Part shown: one piece after another, positions 29,400 through 43,753 of the stretch
Layout: each line of letters starts with the position of its first letter
How positions within the stretch are numbered: the first letter of the stretch is position 1
Assembly: GCA_029262515.1 (NCBI GenBank)
Contig: JAJCZH010000003.1
Location: forward strand, 1-64,000
Length of the DNA: 64,000 bases
Direction of reading: 5' to 3'
DNA from: Deltaproteobacteria bacterium
GTDB taxonomy: Bacteria > Desulfobacterota > GWC2-55-46 > JADFVP01
Program-made: the position numbers and the translations under genes
The notes under the pieces: model-generated
What the model saw: the letters and a program-made list of their open reading frames with translations, nothing else
Databases searched by the model: none
What the model was told of the DNA's origin: nothing

Positions 29400-31694
29400 T
29401 TACATTTTGTTCAGGGCTTTTAGCGTCTCTCGCGCCTCTTCATGGCCCGGGAAGTCTTTGCTTATCTTGATTGCCTGCTTCAACTCAGTCTTGGCCAAGT
29501 CGTTCATCTCCCGCTTAAAGTAGGTCATGCCGAGGTGATAATGGATGACGGCATTGTTAGGTAGCTTCTCAACGCTGTCTTTTAAGTGGGAGGTCGCTTT
29601 GAGCAGTGCGTTTTTCTTGTAATAGATCCAGCCGAGGGTGTCTGAGATATACGGGTCATCGGAACTGATCCTCATGGCGGTCTGCGCAAGATCGAGCGCC
29701 ACGTCTATACTGCCGTCGTTCTCGGCATAAAGCCAGGCGAGGTTGTTTGCCGCCGGCACGAACTCAGGGTTTATTTCGAGCGCCTTTTTGTAATTGGCAA
29801 TAGCCTCGTCCGTCTTGCCCTGTATCTCGCTTAAGGTGCCGAGCAGCATATACGGAGGCAGCAAGTTCGGATTCACCTTGATAACTTCTCTGTATTGTCT
29901 TTCTGCCTCCTCAAAAGCGCCGCTTCTGGCATATACGTTGCCGAGGTCTATGTATGCAGCAACATAGTCCTCTTTCAGCTCTATCGCTTTTTTGAAGCTG
30001 TTTTCGGCGTTCTTATAGTCCTTTCTCGTCAGGTATATCCGTCCGAGAAGCACATAGAACTGCGGATTTTCAGGAGAGAGTTCAAGTTGTTTCTTAACGC
30101 GCCTGAGCGCAGTGCCGGTTCTGCGTTTCTCGACATGGATTGCTGTTATCATCCCGAGCACTTCTGAGAGTTCCGGGTTAATCTTAAGCGCCTTTTCAAG
30201 AGTTCCGAGCGCGGCGACCTCCTTTTTTTGCAGACGGTAAGCGTTTCCTAGTTTTGCGTAGCCTCTGAAATCGTCCGGCGCCAGTTTTGTAACCTTTCTG
30301 TAATACGGTTCAGCATCGGCGGGCCTGTCCTGTCGCATTTTTATATCACCGGCCAGAAGATTGGCGCCAGGGTGTTTGTCATTGGATTTCAAGACCTGTT
30401 CAATCTCGGTCGTTGCAAGGTCGAGGTCGTTGGAGGCTGTATGCAGTGTCGCCAGGGCGAGCCGCGCATCCATGAGGGCAGGGGCCAACTCTATTGCTTT
30501 GCTAAGCTCGGACTTTGCCATCTGAAGACTTTTCTGCGCCATATAAGCGAGACCGAGATACTGGTGTGAACGCGCAAAATTTGGCTCTCCTTCTATTGAT
30601 GATTTTAAATTCTCTACCGCCGTATCAAGCTCCATTTCCGTAAGATCGAGCCGCCCTTTGAGGTAAAGCCCGTAAAAGTCCGAAGGCTGCTCGGTGAGTA
30701 TCGCCTCGACCTGCACCTTTGCATCCTCGTTCTTCTTAAGGTTTAGGCTGATTTCGGCTACACGGGCACGAAGCATATTTAATTTCGGGTTAATCTCTAT
30801 TCCACGCAGCAACGTCTTTATCGCATCTTCGGTATTATTGGAAGAGAGATAGAACTCGGCCTTCATAACATAAGCGCGTCCGAATTCCGGTTTGAGTTTT
30901 ATCGCTTCCTCATAAACCTCTTCAGCCATATCTGGTTGCTTGACCATAAGATAAATATTGGCGAGTCCGAGTAAAATATCCTGGTTGTCAGGGTTCTCCT
31001 CAACAGCTTCCTTTAAGATATTTACGGCATCTTCAGTTCTTTTCTCCGAAAGATAGAGGTTGGCCAGAGTTATACGCGCCTGGATACTGCCGCCTTCGAC
31101 CTTGCTCGCTCTTACGAGCAAGACTTCCGCCTTAGGACCGTTTTTGAGCGAAATATAAATTCCGGCAGCCGTCATCAGGGCGTTGAGGTCGTCAGGGTTA
31201 TCTTTAAGCACCTGCTCTATCAATGTGGCGGCAGTGGTAAACTCCTGCTTGCCGCCAAGGGCGGTCGCTTTCAGTATAGTAGCATCTTTGTTGTCAGGCT
31301 CTGCTTCGAGCATAATCTCCGCTCTTTCAAGAGCAGCGTCAAAGTCGCGCGCTAAAAGAAACATCTTCCCGAGTTTATGCTGGGCGTCGAGTATCGTTGG
31401 GTCTAGATCTACCGCAAACATCAACTCCTGGAAAGCGGCTTGTATATTGCTCTTTCCGCCGACATTCAGGTATGCGATAGCCAGCTTGTGGTGTGCCTGC
31501 GCATTATCGGGGGTCAGTTGCGTGACGTTCTTGTATTCTAGTACGGCCTCTTTGAACCTTGAGGCTTCAAAATGCTCGGTGGCCCTCTCCAAGTGCCGTT
31601 CTGCCCTTTTTGAAGGGTCATTACTGCACGATGGTAGTAGAGCGACAAAGAGGATTAGAGCAAAAAAGATAAACAGATTTCTTTGTTTGAACAT
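29400..31694 (-). CDS. prsT: PEP-CTERM system TPR-repeat lipoprotein (PrsT-like)
   Basis: 764 residues: lipoprotein signal (FIFFALILFVALLPSC) followed almost entirely by about 20 tetratricopeptide repeats (for example AHHKLAIAYLNVGG; YIDLGNVYARSGAFEEAERQY; LLGRIYLTRKDYKNAENSFK). ATG 31694 is preceded by AAAGGT; an upstream extension to 31760 lacks support. The architecture and the neighbourhood of prsR, prsK and a PEP-CTERM protein match PrsT, a predicted scaffold in exosortase-linked exopolysaccharide systems. It probably sits in the outer membrane facing the periplasm. Confidence 0.85.
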   Translation of the reverse strand: MFKQRNLFIFFALILFVALLPSCSNDPSKRAERHLERATEHFEASRFKEAVLEYKNVTQLTPDNAQAHHKLAIAYLNVGGKSNIQAAFQELMFAVDLDPTILDAQHKLGKMFLLARDFDAALERAEIMLEAEPDNKDATILKATALGGKQEFTTAATLIEQVLKDNPDDLNALMTAAGIYISLKNGPKAEVLLVRASKVEGGSIQARITLANLYLSEKRTEDAVNILKEAVEENPDNQDILLGLANIYLMVKQPDMAEEVYEEAIKLKPEFGRAYVMKAEFYLSSNNTEDAIKTLLRGIEINPKLNMLRARVAEISLNLKKNEDAKVQVEAILTEQPSDFYGLYLKGRLDLTEMELDTAVENLKSSIEGEPNFARSHQYLGLAYMAQKSLQMAKSELSKAIELAPALMDARLALATLHTASNDLDLATTEIEQVLKSNDKHPGANLLAGDIKMRQDRPADAEPYYRKVTKLAPDDFRGYAKLGNAYRLQKKEVAALGTLEKALKINPELSEVLGMITAIHVEKRRTGTALRRVKKQLELSPENPQFYVLLGRIYLTRKDYKNAENSFKKAIELKEDYVAAYIDLGNVYARSGAFEEAERQYREVIKVNPNLLPPYMLLGTLSEIQGKTDEAIANYKKALEINPEFVPAANNLAWLYAENDGSIDVALDLAQTAMRISSDDPYISDTLGWIYYKKNALLKATSHLKDSVEKLPNNAVIHYHLGMTYFKREMNDLAKTELKQAIKISKDFPGHEEARETLKALNKM

Positions 31695-32083
31695 AATGTA
31701 CCTTTCTAATAGGTTAGTGAAGTAAAGATTATAGTTAACGGACTCAAAGGTGTCAATCAAAATGAGAACCGCTGCAGTACTAATAACTTTGTCCTTAATT
31801 ATTAGCTTCTTAATGACGTTATACTGTACTGAACTATATACAGTTGCAGTGTGAATGTTTTCTTTACAATTACACTTCTTGGGTGAGTTTGCTAAGTGTC
31901 CGTAAACTCACGACAAATAGGAGCCAGGAGTCTTGTCCTGTTTTATTGCCCGAAAAGTGTTTGTTATTTTTACAGATTTTTGGCCTCGATTTACTCGTAT
32001 AAAAGTGAAAAATAAATTAAACTATGAATAAAGCATATTTAAATTAAGTACTTATCAGTATAGAACCTAGTTGCTGATGATGT
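31695..32083. other. Regulatory gap between prsT-like and PEP-CTERM genes
   Basis: No gene is supported between the two divergent starts. The stretch is AT-rich. It holds the inverted repeat at 31883-31911 and leads into the sigma-54 promoter at 32084-32099. The leftward prsT promoter must also lie here but I cannot place it confidently. Confidence 0.6.
31883..31911. promoter_or_regulatory. Inverted repeat, candidate activator site upstream of the sigma-54 promoter
   Basis: GTGAGTTT (31883-31890) and AAACTCAC (31904-31911) form a perfect 8-bp dyad with a 13-base spacer, about 175-200 bases upstream of the sigma-54 core. That is a typical distance for an enhancer site of an NtrC-family activator such as PrsR. 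The assignment to PrsR is inference. Confidence 0.4.
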
Positions 32084-32099
32084 TGGCACATACTTTGCA
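32084..32099 (+). promoter_or_regulatory. Sigma-54 (RpoN) promoter of the PEP-CTERM gene
   Basis: TGGCAC (32084-32089), 5-base spacer, TTGCA (32095-32099): an exact match to the -24/-12 consensus TGGCAC-N5-TTGCW. Transcription should start near 32111, about 60 bases before the ATG at 32172. Confidence 0.85.
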
Positions 32100-32171
32100 G
32101 TATCTATAAGTAAGCAAGTGTCTTAGATAAGTTAGCTGTGAAGTTATATGTACGATAAGGTAGAGGTGGTT

Positions 32172-32963
32172 ATGAAGAACTTAACTAAAAAGATAATTAT
32201 AGGTCTTACGCTTGGGGCAGCGCTACTGTTTGGCGCAGCGGACAGGGGTTACGCATATCCGACGCTACAGCTCGATATCGATGCCGTTACTGGTTATGAC
32301 TACGGTACCGATACTATCGTTACTTCAGACAGTATATATACTGTAAATGCATACCTTCTTGTTGATGCCTATAATTCTCTATCCGATACGTACTACGTCT
32401 CATTCTCCCTTACAGATACTGATGGCGCTAATGGTATTTCCGACTTGGGGGCCGTTGACCTCGGCGAGTTCTCTGTAAACGGAGCTACCCCTTATGCTGT
32501 TACAGCAGACATGAACTACGGTACTGCGCCGCTTGATGCAATTATAGCCGAAGAGGGGTGGGGAGATCCGAGTTTACCGGCACACGGCGTATGGCCATCT
32601 TACTATGTAGAGGTCGGCTTTCAATTCGACTCTACTCAATATATGACCCCGTATAACACGCAGGACAGGGCGATATCCGGTGCCGCTATAGACTACAGCT
32701 ACGCCGCAAATCCGCATGGCAAGATGTATTACATCTCCTTTGACGTTGATGTGAGTAATCTCAACGCTTACTACGGCATGCATAGCGACCTGTACAATGT
32801 CAATATCAACGATAAAAACAACAGGTACAAGACCCAGTTCGCGCCGTTTTCCCATGACGTCAACAAAATTCCCGAGCCCACTATCTTAGTATTACTTGGT
32901 TTTGGTTTACTAAGCGTATGGGGCGTAAAAAGTCGGTTAAATACTTGTAAAAGTTCTGTTTGA
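32172..32963 (+). CDS. PEP-CTERM sorting-domain protein (choice-of-anchor N type)
   Basis: 263 residues. The signal peptide (KKIIIGLTLGAALLFGAADRGYA) is followed by a beta-rich body starting YPTLQLDIDAVTGYDYGTDT, with ADMNYGTAPLD and LPAHGVWPSYYVEVGFQFD, resembling the choice-of-anchor N family. The C-terminal tripartite signal is IPEPTILVLLGFGLLSVWG then KSR: PEP motif, membrane helix, basic end, for recognition by an exosortase. AGAGGTGG precedes ATG 32172. It is driven by a sigma-54 promoter, so it is the likely target of the PrsK-PrsR pair encoded 0.6 kb away. No exosortase gene is in the window. Confidence 0.9.
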   Translation: MKNLTKKIIIGLTLGAALLFGAADRGYAYPTLQLDIDAVTGYDYGTDTIVTSDSIYTVNAYLLVDAYNSLSDTYYVSFSLTDTDGANGISDLGAVDLGEFSVNGATPYAVTADMNYGTAPLDAIIAEEGWGDPSLPAHGVWPSYYVEVGFQFDSTQYMTPYNTQDRAISGAAIDYSYAANPHGKMYYISFDVDVSNLNAYYGMHSDLYNVNINDKNNRYKTQFAPFSHDVNKIPEPTILVLLGFGLLSVWGVKSRLNTCKSSV

Positions 32964-33118
32964 GTAGTATATTAGATATAATTCAAATATAATTTTGTGA
33001 ATTTGATTATAATTATATCGTATACTAATATATCAAGGTAGAGTATTATCTACTTCTCGCTTTAATTTTCCGTTAATTCAGCAGCCTAAGTAAGAACTAA
33101 AGGGAGCATGTTGTTATT

Positions 33119-33478
33119 ATGAACTATAATATTTGCCCCAGGTGTCATAGTAAATTCTATGCTGCCCTTTCTGAGTCCGATGTCGGTTGCCCTTTTTGCG
33201 GTTACGTAAATACCGGTAACGAACGCAGGGGGCAACAGAGAGCGCAGATAATAAGAGACTGCGATATATTGGTAGACGGGGTTCTGTTTAAGGCAATGAC
33301 AATAGACGTCTCGGTTAACGGCATGGCGCTGGAACTGAAAGAGGAGTTACCATTAAATATAAACGACAAGCTGCAGATTCACGTACACGACTTTGATATA
33401 GAGACTGAATCGAGCGTGGTCTGGCTTCATAAGAATGACAAGGCGTATACCAGTCTCGGTGTCAGCTTCTCCGGTTGA
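33119..33478 (+). CDS. PilZ-domain protein with N-terminal zinc ribbon
   Basis: 119 residues. Two CxxC pairs (C6-x2-C9 and C24-x2-C27) form a short zinc-ribbon-like module. A PilZ domain follows, with the c-di-GMP signature RxxxR (R37-R41) and DVSVNG (D63-x-S65-x2-G68, the D/NxSxxG motif), so c-di-GMP binding is expected. It sits between the PEP-CTERM gene and prsR, which suggests a link of c-di-GMP to exopolysaccharide or surface proteins. The partner of the zinc module is unknown. It ends before a strong terminator. Confidence 0.88.
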   Translation: MNYNICPRCHSKFYAALSESDVGCPFCGYVNTGNERRGQQRAQIIRDCDILVDGVLFKAMTIDVSVNGMALELKEELPLNINDKLQIHVHDFDIETESSVVWLHKNDKAYTSLGVSFSG

Positions 33479-33493
33479 ATAAAATAAGTATGC

Positions 33494-33529
33494 AAAAAAA
33501 AGAGAAGGCAATTGCCTTCTCTTTTTTTA
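33494..33529. terminator. Bidirectional terminator between the PilZ gene and prsR
   Basis: Perfect palindromic stem AGAGAAGGCAA/TTGCCTTCTCT (33501-33522) with A-run before and T-run after. It serves both the rightward PilZ gene and leftward prsR. Confidence 0.9.
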
Positions 33530-33545
33530 ATTTCAGACTAAATAA

Positions 33546-34895
33546 TTACTGTTTTATGCTGTGCTTTTTCATAAGGCTGTACAGGGTAGGGCGTGTCAGC
33601 CCCAGCTCCTCGGCAGCTTTACTGATATTACCGTTATGTTTTTCCATGACAATCCCGATCAGGTCGATTTCAAGCTCTTCTTTAGCAGCTTTCAGGTTGA
33701 GCGTCTTCATACCCGGACCGGAGGTCTCGAACCCGAGGTCGGTCGGCGTAACGGTTGTACCGCTTGCAAACGTGACGGCGCGTCTAATACGATTTTCAAG
33801 CTCGCGAACGTTGCCCGGCCACTCATGTTCCATTATGGCGCTCTGCGCCTGTTTGCTAAAGACCATCGGGACTGAATCTTTATCTGAGAAGCGGCTGAGG
33901 AATACATTGGCCAGAAGAAGTACGTCGTCCCCACGTGCTTTCAGCGACGGAAGTTCCAGATGGACTACCGCAAGCCTGTAATAGAGGTCTTCTCTGAACT
34001 GTTCATTTGCGACCTGGTTTTTAATATCAGTATTTGTTGCGGCTATTATGCGTACATCGGTCTCAATTATCGTTCGCCCCCCGATTCGCTCAACCTTCTG
34101 ATCCTGTAAAAAACGGAGCAACTTAACCTGTAGCTGTAACGGCAGTTCACCGATCTCGTCGAAAAAGAGGGTACCTTTATGCGCCAGTTCCACTTTGCCG
34201 CGCCTCTGGACATGCGCACCAGTGAAAGAACCCTTTTCATGACCGAAGAGTTCGCTCTCCATCAGGGCCTCTGGAATCGCTCCGCAGTTGATCGGTATAA
34301 ACGGGTGGTCGCGCCTGGTGCTGTTGTTATGAATAGCTCTTGCTACAAGCTCCTTACCGGTACCGCTATCCCCGGTTATCAAAACCGGTACGTCGGTAGT
34401 GGCAACTTTGCGGACTATGTTAAAGACCTCCTGTATCTCCGGGCTCGCTCCGACCAGCTCACCGAACGAATCGCTCTCGACCTGGCTCTGTAGCGCCCTG
34501 TACTCGGTTTCGAGCGTATGGACGTAGTATGCACGTTTCAGTATGGCCTTCAGCTCGTCTATATCAACAGGTTTGGAGAAGTAGTCGTGCGCACCCTCGT
34601 TTACCGCCTCTAACGCCGAATTTCTCTCGGCATTGCCGCTTACCACGACAACCTTAGTCATGGGGTCGGTCTTTACTATCCGGTATAGCAGGTCGAGCCC
34701 GACCGATGTTCCCTCCGCATCGGGAGGTAACCCGAGGTCAAGCGTTACGAGCGCGGGGTGCGTAGTACCTATTATCTCCATAGCTTTTTCCGCATCCGCA
34801 GCTATGAAAACATTGTAGTCATGCACCAGCGCCCACTTCATCTGGGTTCTTATTGATTCGTCATCTTCTACTATAAGTATGTCCGGTTTTTCCAT
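33546..34895 (-). CDS. prsR: PEP-CTERM-box response regulator PrsR (sigma-54 activator)
   Basis: 449 residues in NtrC-family order: receiver domain with phosphoacceptor D53 (VTLDLGLP), AAA+ domain with Walker A GDSGTGKE, the sigma-54 loop as GSFTGA (a common variant of GAFTGA), Walker B LFFDEIGEL and R-finger region FREDLYYRL, and a C-terminal Fis-type helix-turn-helix (NISKAAEELGLTRPTLYSLMKK). The sequence and partner kinase match the PEP-CTERM-associated regulator. It should activate sigma-54 promoters such as the one at 32084. prsK lies 46 bases upstream on the same strand. Confidence 0.94.
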   Translation of the reverse strand: MEKPDILIVEDDESIRTQMKWALVHDYNVFIAADAEKAMEIIGTTHPALVTLDLGLPPDAEGTSVGLDLLYRIVKTDPMTKVVVVSGNAERNSALEAVNEGAHDYFSKPVDIDELKAILKRAYYVHTLETEYRALQSQVESDSFGELVGASPEIQEVFNIVRKVATTDVPVLITGDSGTGKELVARAIHNNSTRRDHPFIPINCGAIPEALMESELFGHEKGSFTGAHVQRRGKVELAHKGTLFFDEIGELPLQLQVKLLRFLQDQKVERIGGRTIIETDVRIIAATNTDIKNQVANEQFREDLYYRLAVVHLELPSLKARGDDVLLLANVFLSRFSDKDSVPMVFSKQAQSAIMEHEWPGNVRELENRIRRAVTFASGTTVTPTDLGFETSGPGMKTLNLKAAKEELEIDLIGIVMEKHNGNISKAAEELGLTRPTLYSLMKKHSIKQ

Positions 34896-34941
34896 AAATA
34901 GGTATCCGTATTGCGCGGTCTAAAAAACCGCATTGTAGTGT

Positions 34942-37044
34942 TCAGGACTGTTTTCCAGGTAAGGTAAGCGTAAAGGTCGTTCCGTCTCCTTCAGCCGTTA
35001 CAATATCAATTTTTCCTCCATGAGCCTCTACAACCGCCTTGCACTGGAATAGGCCGATACCGAAACCTTTTTTCTTGGTAGTGCTGAACGGCTTGAAGAG
35101 TTCGTTCTTAACAAATTGCCGCGTCATGCCTTTGCCGTTGTCTTTAACAGAGATCCGGACTTTCTGTTTGTCGGCTACGGCTGATATGTTAATCGTGCCA
35201 TCTTGCTCTATCGCCTCATAAGCATTCGAGATCAAGTTGTGTAGGACCATCTCCATTGCTTCAGGGTCGATATAGACAGGGCCGACAGGAGCAATTTCTT
35301 CGGTTATGATAACATCCTTGTCGCTGTCACACGGTATCTTTTTTATTGCTTTACCAACTACATATTTTATATCGACAGGCTGCCTGTTTATCTCAAGCCC
35401 TTTCGGTATATCGGATAGTTTTTCTATAAGGCCTTTCATTCGCCGTACTATACCGTCTATGCTCCTTATCGCATCCTTTTGAAACTCGGGATTCTCTATG
35501 TTGTGCTTTGCGTTCTGGCTTATAAGCGACAGTGAGTTCGTAAGGTTTTTGAGGTCGTGCATAATAAATGACGACATCCTTGAAAAGACCTCTACCTCTT
35601 TAATCTGCATCAGGTTCTCGCTGAGCCGAATGGTAATCATCTGAACAGCCGCCTGAGTTGTCATTGCTCTCAGTATCTCAAAGTCGTCCGTGCCGTACTG
35701 TTTACCGGTGGCGTCTTTGCTTATAAGTAGAAAGCCGATCACGGACTCACCGGCTATAATCGGTGCACAGAGCACTGCGTCGGTTGCAACGGCGAGTTCA
35801 TGCACTTCGCTATCGACCGGTATGGCCGGCATTCCGGCATCGGGATCAACAAAGAAAGGAGCCATGATTTCATTTATATGAACAGCTAGGGGATGGGTTA
35901 CGGATAGCTGCTCATATTGAGGCAACAGGTCGTTGCCCTCGCAAGAGAACGTACTTGAAGACTGGTCGAGCAGCCAGAGGTGAATCTTTTTTGCTCCGAG
36001 AGCTTCGGTAAGCATCCCGGTAAGTGTAGAACTGATCTCGTCAATAGAGCGTTTAGAGCTAATCCTTTCCGTTGTCTCCATCCATGAGTCTCTGAACTCA
36101 TGTTTATGTTTATAGAAATGGGTCGAGACGAATATCCGCAGGCGCCTGTTGAGGTCGCGCATGAAGATCAGTATAATTAGAAGAAGAATCGAGATAAAGG
36201 TGAAGATGGAGACGAAGAAGTTATCGTACGGCAGGTCAAAGTACCTGATTCCCTGTATTATGAGGCCGGTTGAGAGCAGGTAGATACCAACAATCAGTAC
36301 GGTAAGAGAGTTGTAGACGACGTAGCGCGATATGAAGACATCCACATCCATAAGGCGGTGACGTACGATAAAGACCGCCATTATAGAGGTAGCAATCAGA
36401 ATAACGGCTGAGGTAAGCGGAAGCGAAGAAAAACCATATGTCTGAAAGAGCAGACTCTGGCTTGAGAGGTAGATCTTGAAGGCGAGGATAGAGCCTATGC
36501 CGAAGATCACATATTTGATTTGCCACCGTTTAGCCCCGGTTGAAGAGCGTAGCGTATTTTCAAGGTGTATAAGAACGAGGACGAGACCTACTATCATGTA
36601 GATGTAGTAGAATCTTCCGATATCCCCTACCTCTACCAGCGTCTCGTTGCCCTCTCTTATGGTCTCGGACATTATCGTTACGACCCTGCCGGTCAGCGTC
36701 ATTGCGGCAAAAAAGAGGCCAGCAACGGATATAAGCAGAACCCAGAGGTTGCGCTTTAATTCATTCTTCTGTTCGGTTCTGGCAAAGACGAGCGAGAAGA
36801 TGAGCCACAGGGGAGGCAGGAGCGCAAAGACGGCGGTAGAGAGCCGTATACCGAACTCCATAACGGGCAGTGATGAGGAGAGTAAGACTATCGCGCTTCC
36901 GGTCTCCGCGACTACAAGCGAGGCCATGCCGACCGCAAAACTCTTGTTGGTCCGGTTATGCGGATTGCGGCTCAGGGTAAAGAGGCCGAGGGCGAAGCAA
37001 AGCAGCGCACTCAGAACCGGTAGAATTGTAAGGTAGGCTGGCAT
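34942..37044 (-). CDS. prsK: PEP-CTERM system sensor histidine kinase PrsK
   Basis: 700 residues. The N-terminal third has about eight to nine membrane helices (ILPVLSALLCFALGLFTL onwards). A GAF-like domain follows (SVIGFLLISKDATGKQYGTDDFE), then a dimerisation/phosphoacceptor segment with H496 (SFIMHDLKN) and an HATPase domain with N box HNLISNAYEA (about 602-611), G1 DNGKG (about 635-639) and G2 GFGIGL (about 660-665). The architecture matches PrsK. The stimulus is unknown. It is the partner of PrsR downstream. Confidence 0.93.
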   Translation of the reverse strand: MPAYLTILPVLSALLCFALGLFTLSRNPHNRTNKSFAVGMASLVVAETGSAIVLLSSSLPVMEFGIRLSTAVFALLPPLWLIFSLVFARTEQKNELKRNLWVLLISVAGLFFAAMTLTGRVVTIMSETIREGNETLVEVGDIGRFYYIYMIVGLVLVLIHLENTLRSSTGAKRWQIKYVIFGIGSILAFKIYLSSQSLLFQTYGFSSLPLTSAVILIATSIMAVFIVRHRLMDVDVFISRYVVYNSLTVLIVGIYLLSTGLIIQGIRYFDLPYDNFFVSIFTFISILLLIILIFMRDLNRRLRIFVSTHFYKHKHEFRDSWMETTERISSKRSIDEISSTLTGMLTEALGAKKIHLWLLDQSSSTFSCEGNDLLPQYEQLSVTHPLAVHINEIMAPFFVDPDAGMPAIPVDSEVHELAVATDAVLCAPIIAGESVIGFLLISKDATGKQYGTDDFEILRAMTTQAAVQMITIRLSENLMQIKEVEVFSRMSSFIMHDLKNLTNSLSLISQNAKHNIENPEFQKDAIRSIDGIVRRMKGLIEKLSDIPKGLEINRQPVDIKYVVGKAIKKIPCDSDKDVIITEEIAPVGPVYIDPEAMEMVLHNLISNAYEAIEQDGTINISAVADKQKVRISVKDNGKGMTRQFVKNELFKPFSTTKKKGFGIGLFQCKAVVEAHGGKIDIVTAEGDGTTFTLTLPGKQS

Positions 37045-40205: not shown

Positions 40206-41537
40206 TTATGCCTTTATTATCTTTTTACTCTTTATGCCAGAAGTAGCATTTCTGGTGTCCACGACCAGAGCGCTCTGTTTGACGATCCAGCGGTAGTCGT
40301 ATGCAGTATGGTCGGTTGCTATCAAAACACAGTCGTACCTCTTGAGGTTCTGTTCGGTCAGTTTAGTGGACGACATCTTGAATCCGCGCCTGTGGCTGAC
40401 GGCGACCGGAATATGGGGGTCGTTGAAGTCGACCTTTGCTCCTTTGCTCCTCAGTTCCTTGATCAACTCAAGGGAAGGGGACTCACGCAGGTCGTCAACA
40501 TCTTTTTTGTAGGCAATTCCGAGCACGAGTACCTTCGAGCCCTTGAGGCTCTTTCCCTTGTCGTTGAGAGCCTCCATTACCCTGGTTATTACATAATGCG
40601 GCATAGAGGAGTTTATTTCACCGGAAAGCTCTATGAAACGCGTAGCAAAATCGTACTCGCGCGCCTTCCATGTAAGGTAGAACGGGTCGATCGGTATGCA
40701 GTGACCGCCGAGACCGGGCCCAGGGTAGAAGGCCTGAAAGCCGAACGGTTTGGTTTTGGAGGCCTCTATAACCTCCCAGAGGTCAATATCCATTTTCTGG
40801 CAGAGCATCTTGAGTTCGTTTACAAGCGCAATATTGACGGCGCGGTAGATGTTCTCCAGTAACTTGGTAAGCTCGGCTGCCCTGGTGGAAGAGACCGGGA
40901 CTACGCGGTCAACGATAGAAGAGTACAGGGCGGTGCCTAGCTTCAGGCACTCTTTCGTTATTCCACCGACAACTTTCGGAGTTGTTTTAGTGGTAAAATC
41001 TATACGTCCCGGGTCTTCTCGCTCAGGCGAGTAGACTAGAAAAAAGTCTTTGCCTGTCTTTAGCCCTGTCTCTTCAAAGAGCGGCAGCAGGAGTTCGTCC
41101 GTAGTACCTGGGTAAGTCGTAGACTCTAAAGAGACGAGCTGCCCGGGGCGCAGATGTTTCTTTATCTCTTTTGCAGTCTGTTCAACATAGCTTAGGTCCG
41201 GCTCTCTTTTCGAAGAGAGCGGGGTAGGCACGCAGATTATTACGGCATCGGCCTTGGAGAGCAGCTTCAGGTTTGTGGTCGGGGTGAATACTGCGTCCCC
41301 TGAGGCGGATTTAGAGACAAGGGCTTTTATGCTCTTGGATGGAATATGCTTGATGTACGATTTGCCGTTGTTGAGCGCATCGACCTTCTTGATGTCAACA
41401 TCGAACCCAAGTACCTTGAACCCTTCGTCGCAGAAACGCATAACTATCGGTAAACCGACATAACCGAGTCCGATTATACCTATTGTAGCCTTCTTATCCT
41501 GCAAAAGACCGAGTAACTTCTTATTCTGTTCAGTCAT
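40206..41537 (-). CDS. UDP-N-acetylglucosamine/UDP-sugar 6-dehydrogenase (WbpA/TviB-like)
   Basis: 443 residues of the UDP-glucose/GDP-mannose dehydrogenase family. N-terminal NAD motif IIGLGYVGLP; VCVPTP-like ICVPTPLSS; central ENIYRAVNIALVNEL; catalytic C280 in GPGLGGHCIPIDPFYL. The sequence style is closer to WbpA/TviB than to Ugd. It oxidises a UDP-sugar to its 6-carboxylate in two NAD-dependent steps. First gene of the leftward unit dehydrogenase, epimerase, fusion oxidoreductase. Confidence 0.92.
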   Translation of the reverse strand: MTEQNKKLLGLLQDKKATIGIIGLGYVGLPIVMRFCDEGFKVLGFDVDIKKVDALNNGKSYIKHIPSKSIKALVSKSASGDAVFTPTTNLKLLSKADAVIICVPTPLSSKREPDLSYVEQTAKEIKKHLRPGQLVSLESTTYPGTTDELLLPLFEETGLKTGKDFFLVYSPEREDPGRIDFTTKTTPKVVGGITKECLKLGTALYSSIVDRVVPVSSTRAAELTKLLENIYRAVNIALVNELKMLCQKMDIDLWEVIEASKTKPFGFQAFYPGPGLGGHCIPIDPFYLTWKAREYDFATRFIELSGEINSSMPHYVITRVMEALNDKGKSLKGSKVLVLGIAYKKDVDDLRESPSLELIKELRSKGAKVDFNDPHIPVAVSHRRGFKMSSTKLTEQNLKRYDCVLIATDHTAYDYRWIVKQSALVVDTRNATSGIKSKKIIKA

Positions 41538-41891: not shown

Positions 41892-41903
41892 TATAATATA
41901 GAT

Positions 41904-42032
41904 AATAACTACCTTTGCTCAGAGCAGCCAACGGGAAACCGTGGTACGCAGAGTGACGGGACTAAAGGAGACGGTTGGTCTGTTTTTCATGTTCGCCGAA
42001 CCGCCAAAGGAAAATTACTTTAGGTAGTTATT
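41904..42032 (+). ncRNA. GEMM-I-like cyclic-dinucleotide riboswitch, cGAMP-type specificity base
   Basis: Pattern match to the GEMM-I aptamer: P1 CCTTTG (41912-41917) with CAAAGG (42005-42010); CAGAGCAGCC; a hairpin CCAACGG-GAAA-CCGTGG with GNRA tetraloop (41928-41944); then GTACGCAGAGTGACGGGACTAAA against consensus GGACGCAAAGCxACGGGxCUAA; and GCCGAACCGCC at the 3' side against GCCGGGUUGCC. By V. cholerae Vc2 numbering, position 20 (41923) is A, as in 3',3'-cGAMP-selective GEMM-Ib RNAs, while C46 and A47 (41949, 41950) are kept. An 11-bp outer pairing AATAACTACCT (41904-41914) with AGGTAGTTATT (42022-42032) competes with P1 and may be the switch. The pairing was read by eye. Confidence 0.68.
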
Positions 42033-42065
42033 TATTTAGCTATATGGTGAGCTATATAGTGTAAA

Positions 42066-42096
42066 CCCTGATTGGATTATGATATATTTATCAGGG
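42066..42096 (+). promoter_or_regulatory. Hairpin overlapping the ribosome-binding site of the Fn3 lipoprotein
   Basis: CCCTGAT (42066-42072) pairs with ATCAGGG (42090-42096). The last three bases of the hairpin are the start of the ribosome-binding sequence GGGAGGA (42094-42100), which lies 5 bases before ATG 42106, so the stem can partly mask it. Confidence 0.5.
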
Positions 42097-42105
42097 AGGA
42101 TCAAA

Positions 42106-42504
42106 ATGTTATCACTGACCAAGATAAAGCATCGCACATCAGTTAAACTACTCATGCTTGCCTTACTGTTCATACTAATCGGTTGCGGTGGCGGAGGAGG
42201 AGATGCCGTTAGTGTTGACGGAGCAGCTGTTACCAATGCTTCACTTACATGGACACCTCCCACAACCAGGATGAATGGAAGCACACTATTCGATAGCGAT
42301 ATTGCCAGCTACAAAGTATACTACGGCACAACAATTTCCGGACCATATCCTAACATTGTACCGGTTGCCAAGTCGGCCTGCACACCTTCGTGCGTGGCTA
42401 CGATAACAGGCCTTTCATCCGGGACCTATTACTTTGTTGTAACCGTGATAGATACTGCTGCCTATGAGAGTGGATATTCTACAGAGGTAGTCAAGGTAAT
42501 TTAA
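42106..42504 (+). CDS. Fibronectin type III domain lipoprotein
   Basis: 132 residues. Lipobox LLFILIGC, then a Gly run, then one Fn3-like domain: ASLTWTPPTTRMNG, IASYKVYYGT, ATITGLSSGTYYFVVTVID, ESGYSTEVVKVI. Two cysteines in a short loop (SACTPSC) may form a disulfide. Predicted outer-membrane or surface-exposed. ATG 42106 follows GGGAGGA. It is the first gene after the GEMM-like riboswitch and so the likely regulated target. Confidence 0.85.
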   Translation: MLSLTKIKHRTSVKLLMLALLFILIGCGGGGGDAVSVDGAAVTNASLTWTPPTTRMNGSTLFDSDIASYKVYYGTTISGPYPNIVPVAKSACTPSCVATITGLSSGTYYFVVTVIDTAAYESGYSTEVVKVI

Positions 42505-42610: not shown

Positions 42611-43753
42611 ATGTTTACAAGAAGAACGCGCTGGATTTCGATATTTTCTCTTTCAATTCTAATACTCTTGTTTGCCGGTATTCAAGTCTTCGCAGCGCCG
42701 AGTATTAGCAGCTTAAGCGGGTCACTGACTGATGGTAGCGCAATAACTGTTACTGGTACAAATTTTGGTGCCAATGGTCCGAATATTGTTATCTTCGATA
42801 ATTTTGATAGCGGTACGAACGGCAGCCTTATAAAAACCGGTAACGGTTCGGCTACTGTAGGAAAATGGGATAGGATACAGGCTGATGGTGGAGGGAACCA
42901 GCCAGTATATGATAATACTTATTCTGTTTCCGGTTCACTGGCAAACATGGGAAATGCAACTGTACAATTTCCTTCACCCGGAGATTCATCTTCGGCCATG
43001 GTTGTTACTAATATAAATACTACCGATGTTTTTTTAACGTACTGGTTCTATCTGCCGACAAGCTCAAATTTCCCCTGTACTAACGGTACATACAATTGTA
43101 ACTGGAAAGCCGCGTGGATATATGGATCTACTGCCGCTGATGACGACCAGGTTCTGCCAGTAGGGCTTCCAAGCTCCGGTACCGAGCCTTATACAAGCTG
43201 GGCAATTTCCTGTAACGACTGTTACGGTCCGTCGACCAGTTGGTTCTATTTTAACATGTATAAAGGGAACTGGTACAGGATCAGCGCATGGGTACATGCC
43301 ACAAGCGATAATACCAGTCATAGAGACTTATGGGTGATGAGCACTGATGCGTCTATTCCTGTTACTCAAGAAGTTAACTGGACCGGCAGAATATTCAACC
43401 TTGGCACCGATATGTTCGAGAACTTCTCCATAAATTCCTGGGCAAGAGAATGTACTAATTGTACAGAGTCTGCACCTCGATTCGATGATGTATATATGGC
43501 GACCGGCAGCAACGCGAGGGCCAGGGTGGAGGTAGGTAATGCATCTACGTATAACAGCAGTACCAATCTTGCAATTGCATCAGTAACGGCGTGGACGAAT
43601 ACTACGATTACTGCGACTATCCGACAGGGTTCGTTCAGCAGCCTGACAAACGCTTATCTCTATGTTGTAGATGCAAACGGCGTAGTTAACACAACAGGCT
43701 ATCCGCTCTGCCCGCTCTGTCCTAACCCGCCGTCAGGTGTCCAGGCCAATTAA
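42611..43753 (+). CDS. Large secreted protein with IPT/TIG-like ends and a lectin-like middle
   Basis: 380 residues, function unknown. Signal peptide (ISIFSLSILILLFAGIQVFAAP), an N-terminal IPT/TIG-like fold (SISSLSGSLTDGSAITVTGTNFG), a middle beta-rich region of concanavalin-like appearance (DVFLTYWFYLP; NWYRISAWVHATSD; PRFDDVYMATG), and a C-terminal segment (SVTAWTNTTITATI; AYLYVVDANGVVNTTGY). It ends in a Cys/Pro linker PLCPLCPNPPSGVQAN, a kind of linker that often precedes an Fn3 domain, but no domain follows. AGAGG precedes the ATG. It is probably cotranscribed with the Fn3 lipoprotein (106-base gap). There is no PEP-CTERM signal. Confidence 0.75.
   Translation: MFTRRTRWISIFSLSILILLFAGIQVFAAPSISSLSGSLTDGSAITVTGTNFGANGPNIVIFDNFDSGTNGSLIKTGNGSATVGKWDRIQADGGGNQPVYDNTYSVSGSLANMGNATVQFPSPGDSSSAMVVTNINTTDVFLTYWFYLPTSSNFPCTNGTYNCNWKAAWIYGSTAADDDQVLPVGLPSSGTEPYTSWAISCNDCYGPSTSWFYFNMYKGNWYRISAWVHATSDNTSHRDLWVMSTDASIPVTQEVNWTGRIFNLGTDMFENFSINSWARECTNCTESAPRFDDVYMATGSNARARVEVGNASTYNSSTNLAIASVTAWTNTTITATIRQGSFSSLTNAYLYVVDANGVVNTTGYPLCPLCPNPPSGVQAN

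Follow-up and report, generated by a model that had tools for sequence, protein, structure and literature searches.

A GEMM-I riboswitch with A at the ligand-specificity position is found in the 5' leader of an Fn3-like lipoprotein gene in the window (the whole 64,000-nucleotide stretch of deltaproteobacterial DNA that was analysed). Given this base (A20 in Vc2 numbering), conserved synteny, a second A20 riboswitch in the genome, the presence of Hypr GGDEF genes and the co-occurrence of A20 with Hypr across the phylum, the element very probably belongs to GEMM-Ib, the known class that responds to 3',3'-cGAMP. It is followed by a weak terminator. That we are dealing with a GEMM-Ib aptamer at all is very probable; the fuller statement, namely a GEMM-Ib riboswitch that was ancestrally an ON switch and whose terminator has decayed, leaving the lipoprotein gene on by default, is one that we favour with a fair degree of confidence. 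Within it, the identity of the ligand, the ON direction and the default-ON state are what we infer, the last of these from predicted folding.

The initial annotation, made from the sequence alone, had read the elements of a GEMM-I aptamer in this leader, and all were found at the positions claimed: the two strands of P1, a GAAA loop, ACGCAGAG, ACGGGACTAAA and GCCGAACCGCC. GEMM-I membership was also right according to the cmscan check it had proposed, as RF01051 matches the plus strand over its full length (model 1-87, 35.4 bits, E 0.0031), barely above the gathering score of 35 bits. No Rfam family other than RF01051 was matched by cmscan in the 64 kb. The features of the aptamer are as follows.

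41912-41917, plus strand: P1 5' strand CCTTTG, read in the sequence; the P1 strands change in matched fashion among relatives
41913-42008, plus strand: GEMM-I aptamer (RF01051) of A20 type; 35.4 bits with RF01051, 74.3 bits with model R1
41923, plus strand: A at the ligand-specificity position (Vc2 20), from the Rfam alignment
41926-41928, plus strand: junction AGC (AAA in relatives), where two nearly invariant columns depart in the alignment and the model alignment
41950-41951, plus strand: equivalents of A47 (41950) and G48 (41951); G48 accompanies A20 in relatives
42005-42010, plus strand: P1 3' strand CAAAGG, common to the 5' arm of the terminator, read in the sequence; relatives overlap likewise

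Since the RF01051 score is marginal, a covariance model (R1) was built without the window copy, on 21 A20 riboswitches from its relatives. With this leave-one-out model the window aptamer scores 74.3 bits (E 4.6e-23), which rules out a chance match, and no other place in the window exceeds 10.5 bits. Among the 21 relatives, pairing is kept with both sides changed in 13 of the 19 predicted pairs. The window copy conserves all 27 columns that are invariant among them, and these comprise position 20, the equivalent of A47 and the strand GCC (by-eye comparison of alignments). It departs from the relatives in that the junction AAA has become AGC, P2 contains a mismatch and P3 is rich in wobble pairs; with two nearly invariant bases and both stems altered, affinity could be lost. 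Ligand binding is thus likely but not certain, because the invariant columns are kept but the junction, P2 and P3 depart.

At 41923 the base is A, as the initial annotation had claimed; this is model position 11 of RF01051 in the Rfam alignment, which we take to be Vc2 position 20. The copy of the sister species G002 (L053) shares A20 with the window copy, as does the genome's other riboswitch (L001). Across 61 GEMM-I riboswitches, drawn from this order and three Nitrospirota genomes, positions 20 and 48 covary, with 28 A20/G48 (as in the window copy), 22 G20/A48, five G20/G48 and two A20/A48, position 48 being unread in four riboswitches with G20. The use of G48 as a defining mark of GEMM-Ib was dropped, as A20 is combined with A48 in two Nitrospirota sequences and the pilM RNA, aligned from PMC6274999, apparently has A at the position where the window copy has G48. 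The A20G substitution turns the Gmet_0970 riboswitch from cGAMP to c-di-GMP selectivity (PMC6456294).

When the whole genome is searched with the A20 model, two places stand out: the window copy and L001 (G000:C21:14883-14982, minus strand), which scores 81.3 bits, its sequence having been in the training set of the model. Neither RF01051 nor the A20 model detects further GEMM-I copies above noise in the genome beyond these two. L001 carries A20, P1 strands TCTG/CAGA and a good terminator, and precedes a gene for a 4Fe-4S/pyridine-nucleotide-disulphide oxidoreductase. A riboswitch and gene similar to these are present in both congeners (L042 and L043).

The signature of Hypr cGAMP cyclases is Ser348 with GGDE[F/Y] (PMC6456294). 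A search for proteins of this type, also proposed in the initial annotation, found two in the genome, where a motif scan identifies GHxxGS followed by GGDEF in two of 22 GGDEF domains.

C6:34851-35318: putative Hypr GGDEF gene, GHxxGS and GGDEF motif
C8:245206-245724: putative Hypr GGDEF gene, GHxxGS and GGDEF motif

Both proteins are GAF-GGDEF proteins, L026 by Pfam and L023 by PDB matches across both halves, and they belong to the two orthologous groups into which Hypr proteins of this order fall, I (L026) and II (L023). The best PDB match of the L023 protein is 6d9m, with 158 bits over the GGDEF domain (119 bits for the next GGDEF structure). This entry is described as a response-receiver GAF/GGDEF cyclase in fusion with T4 endolysin, and is taken to be GmGacA, judging from the construct in PMC6456294. 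In the L023 protein a Ser is aligned with the cross-dimer Tyr304 of GacA, a position at which Tyr, Ser, Ala or Gln is found in enzymes that produce mainly cGAMP (PMC6456294). From these motifs the genome is expected to encode a putative cGAMP source, a Hypr GGDEF with Ser at the 348 position. The canonical aspartate is present in nearly all other GGDEF proteins (motif scan, one being unread by the scan), and so c-di-GMP is surely made too.

Hypr is nearly universal in the order, its DNA motif being found in 38 of 39 relatives, including genomes that lack an A20 riboswitch, and at this level co-occurrence is therefore uninformative. In a phylum sample of 297 genomes, by contrast, the motif is present in nine of nine A20/G48 genomes, which span six families, versus five of the 21 genomes with G20 only (Fisher 1.4e-4, kinship uncorrected) and 57 of the 288 others (8e-7, kinship uncorrected). 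A further weak A20/G48 match, in G313, occurs without Hypr and is not aptamer-like; if it is included, the latter value becomes 7e-6. The survey undercounts, because its strict DNA pattern misses the window copy itself, whose junction is altered. A dependence of A20 riboswitches on Hypr type I alone was considered and rejected, as G009 and G017 combine A20 with only the type II motif. As the ligand, cGAMP is well supported indirectly by the two Hypr GGDEFs, by A20 in the second riboswitch and the sister species, and by the way in which A20 tracks Hypr.

The genes that flank the riboswitch, with the ribosome-binding site, are the following.

40206-41537, minus strand: UDP-glucose/GDP-mannose dehydrogenase, divergent, used as a synteny marker (Pfam 4e-44; ortholog likewise divergent in L064)
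42094-42099, plus strand: ribosome-binding site GGGAGG, read in the sequence
42106-42504, plus strand: lipoprotein gene, 132 amino acids, lipobox LIGC, one Fn3-like domain (weak Pfam fn3 match)
42611-43753, plus strand: predicted secreted protein, 380 amino acids, no family found in the family search

The match of the lipoprotein to Pfam fn3 (E 0.0012, 19.4 bits) is under the family cut-off of 25. In G002, the sister species, the gene at the corresponding position encodes a protein 53% identical to it, for which no Pfam match was obtained on reading from an upstream start. The sister species shares the order of divergent UDP-sugar dehydrogenase, A20 riboswitch and Fn3 lipoprotein. Running a DNA pattern derived from the window riboswitch against the genome collection gave nine records, of which five are labelled Deltaproteobacteria, three are Nitrospirota, including Ca. 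Manganitrophus, and one is from the sister species. By eye, the downstream gene resembles a secreted Fn3-type protein in the seven records that cover it, and for both of the proteins submitted to Pfam the fn3 match is clear. The second gene downstream had been annotated as encoding a large secreted protein; it is indeed predicted to be secreted, but is not especially large. The neighbourhood was correctly recognised as a PEP-CTERM/exopolysaccharide locus; it is of the XrtA/PEP-CTERM kind, and includes PrsK, PrsR and PrsT. These regulators occupy positions 29400-37044 of the window, comprising the TPR protein PrsT (29400-31760), the response regulator PrsR (33546-34895) and the kinase PrsK (34942-37044), with a choice-of-anchor N protein at 32148-32963. 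The N-terminal part of a 727-amino-acid open reading frame at 57387-59570 matches a PEP-CTERM-type glycosyltransferase, and the C-terminal part a PgaB-type polysaccharide deacetylase; either the two are fused or a pair of genes has been run together.

The candidate -10 box and the elements of the expression platform are these.

41892-41897, plus strand: TATAAT, candidate -10 box, read in the sequence
41906-41913, plus strand: leader strand TAACTACC, exact complement of 42023-42030, overlapping the first P1 bases
41999-42039, plus strand: degenerate terminator, consisting of an imperfect hairpin (41999-42029) and an interrupted T-run, ATTTATTTAG (hairpin search)
42023-42030, plus strand: GGTAGTTA, former 3' arm of the terminator, complementary to the leader at 41906-41913 (sequence and predicted free-RNA fold)

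The TATAAT has no matching -35 element and is not among the sites of a consensus scan; if it is the -10 box, the transcript would start at about 41904 and would include the leader strand. In a hairpin search of 19 riboswitches, the best terminator hairpin of the window copy has -6.4 kcal/mol, compared with -12.9 to -27.8 kcal/mol for relatives possessing a terminator; the relative without one of its own is L048, the first of two riboswitches in tandem. Inclusion of the P1 3' strand in the terminator is clear in most relatives examined and degenerate in the window copy, the hairpin of which was not reported by a terminator scan. In predicted free-RNA ensembles, which leave out ligand, tertiary contacts and cotranscriptional order, the window copy has about 20 expected pairs between leader and 3' arm versus 2.4 terminator pairs; the terminator pairs in 11 other riboswitches number 8 to 12. 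One of these 11, L164 of Ca. Manganitrophus, likewise has leader pairing (12), its terminator being intact. P1 is without weight in every free-RNA ensemble computed, all of them ligand-free. On these predictions the lipoprotein gene may be on by default in this genome. Control of this gene by the riboswitch, as first proposed, is doubtful here because the terminator has decayed, a decay that may itself reflect an assembly error.

According to the mechanism that we propose, the A20 aptamer would select 3',3'-cGAMP over c-di-GMP. In the ancestral state, as long as no ligand was bound, the intrinsic terminator would draw in the 3' side of P1 (CCGCCAAAGG), and cGAMP made by the Hypr GAF-GGDEF enzymes would lock the aptamer and P1, block the terminator and allow the lipoprotein to be made, as in a transcriptional ON switch. 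In this genome the ligand pocket is kept, but decay has affected the terminator stem and the U-run, and what was the 3' arm is predicted to pair with the leader; transcription of the gene therefore probably needs little or no cGAMP, being leaky or constitutive. Tight control has thus probably been lost in this genome, as judged from the folding models.

Three other explanations were weighed, the foremost being that the riboswitch is a fully working cGAMP ON switch, in which the shortened hairpin and T-rich tail still terminate and the ligand still relieves termination. None of the 27 invariant aptamer columns has been lost, and a hairpin with AAC/GTT, GCC/GGT and AAAG/CTTT pairing can still be traced together with the T-rich tail. 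However, this hairpin falls outside the energy range of relatives with a terminator, it was missed by the terminator scan, and the helix of leader and 3' arm outcompetes it in the predicted free RNA, and we regard full function as unlikely. Ranking below it, and improbable in our view, is the idea of a dying relic, where the aptamer has lost binding and the leader is merely an untranslated region. That two junction bases are changed, P2 contains a mismatch, P3 is rich in wobble pairs and the terminator is degraded, all in one copy, would fit such a relic, but every invariant column, ligand pocket included, is kept while other parts vary, and the score of 74 bits is near that of the second riboswitch, 81 bits.

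The least probable explanation, and a very improbable one, is a c-di-GMP or promiscuous GEMM-I riboswitch, for which A20 alone would not set specificity and c-di-GMP would be the real ligand. The canonical aspartate of nearly all other GGDEFs means that c-di-GMP is surely made, and selectivity could be influenced by the altered junction; on the other side, both of the genome's riboswitches have A20, as does the sister species, A20 tracks Hypr across the phylum, and in the Geobacter riboswitch it was A20G that brought c-di-GMP selectivity (PMC6456294).

The Geobacter GEMM-Ib riboswitches, among them GSU1761 (pgcA), Gmet_0970 and pilM, are similar to the window copy in the GEMM-I fold, A20, a Hypr GGDEF in the genome and association with surface genes, and their terminator overlapping P1 is matched in the relatives of the window copy. 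The window copy differs in coming from another order, in its AGC junction and in its decayed terminator. The pilM riboswitch is an ON switch (PMC9262584), and the terminators of the relatives overlap the P1 3' strand as it does. With the c-di-GMP-I riboswitch (RF01051, Vc2 type), the aptamer architecture and Rfam family are shared, but the window copy has A20 and the Vc2 type G20. Changes that destabilise the terminator of the pgcA riboswitch in G. sulfurreducens are described as rendering expression insensitive to cGAMP (PMC6456294). The likeness to these variants is that terminator loss would bypass the need for cGAMP; they arose in laboratory cultures, whereas the window copy is from an environmental genome and adds leader complementarity. 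The pairing of a GEMM riboswitch with Fn3 is already known from Geobacter, G. bemidjiensis having a triplicated Fn3 gene under GEMM regulation (PMC2996986), and KN400_1971 also bears a GEMM riboswitch (PMC13194489). Likened by arrangement, the Geobacter genes (Gbem_1796/1798/1799, KN400_1971 and GSU1945) share a riboswitch before a secreted Fn3 protein (PMC2996986, PMC13194489, PMC10599522), but the window protein is a single-domain lipoprotein, adjoins a PEP-CTERM/exopolysaccharide locus and belongs to another order.

The riboswitch is of A20 type in the window genus and most other genera examined. In genus g11 (G012, G016, G022, G027 and G035) it is G20, yet still has two features of the A20 type, G48 and the CTTTGCTCA context (G20/G48 loci L035, L036, L037, L039 and L040, in G027, G035, G012, G016 and G022). 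An Fn3-like gene lies downstream in both g11 riboswitches read, and the type I Hypr protein is absent from four of the five genomes, being kept in G022. The simplest reading of these sequences would be a single change from A20 to G20 in the genus. We put forward tentatively, with somewhat less than even confidence, that the riboswitch-Fn3 unit switched naturally from cGAMP to c-di-GMP in g11, the window copy escaping control by its ligand by way of the helix between leader and terminator arm. If true, the reversal in g11 would be traceable base by base. The natural A20/G20 series of one riboswitch type before similar genes would lend itself to the study of ligand change in RNA sensors.

By their sequence signatures, cGAMP synthases and riboswitches can be placed in an uncultivated deltaproteobacterial order, and the same signatures would extend cGAMP signalling to Nitrospirota including Ca. 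Manganitrophus, beyond the Geobacter group where it was worked out. In the literature searched, we found no report of cGAMP signalling in Ca. Manganitrophus, a manganese oxidiser. It has 12 RF01051 matches, with A20 in seven of the ten examined, and two Hypr-motif GGDEF genes (loci L058 and L143-L167; G327, G328 and G329). Some of the matches are in close tandem. A tandem arrangement is also seen in G021, where two A20 aptamers (L030 and L048, G021:C31:1484-1676) are 15 bases apart, with the terminator on the downstream one.
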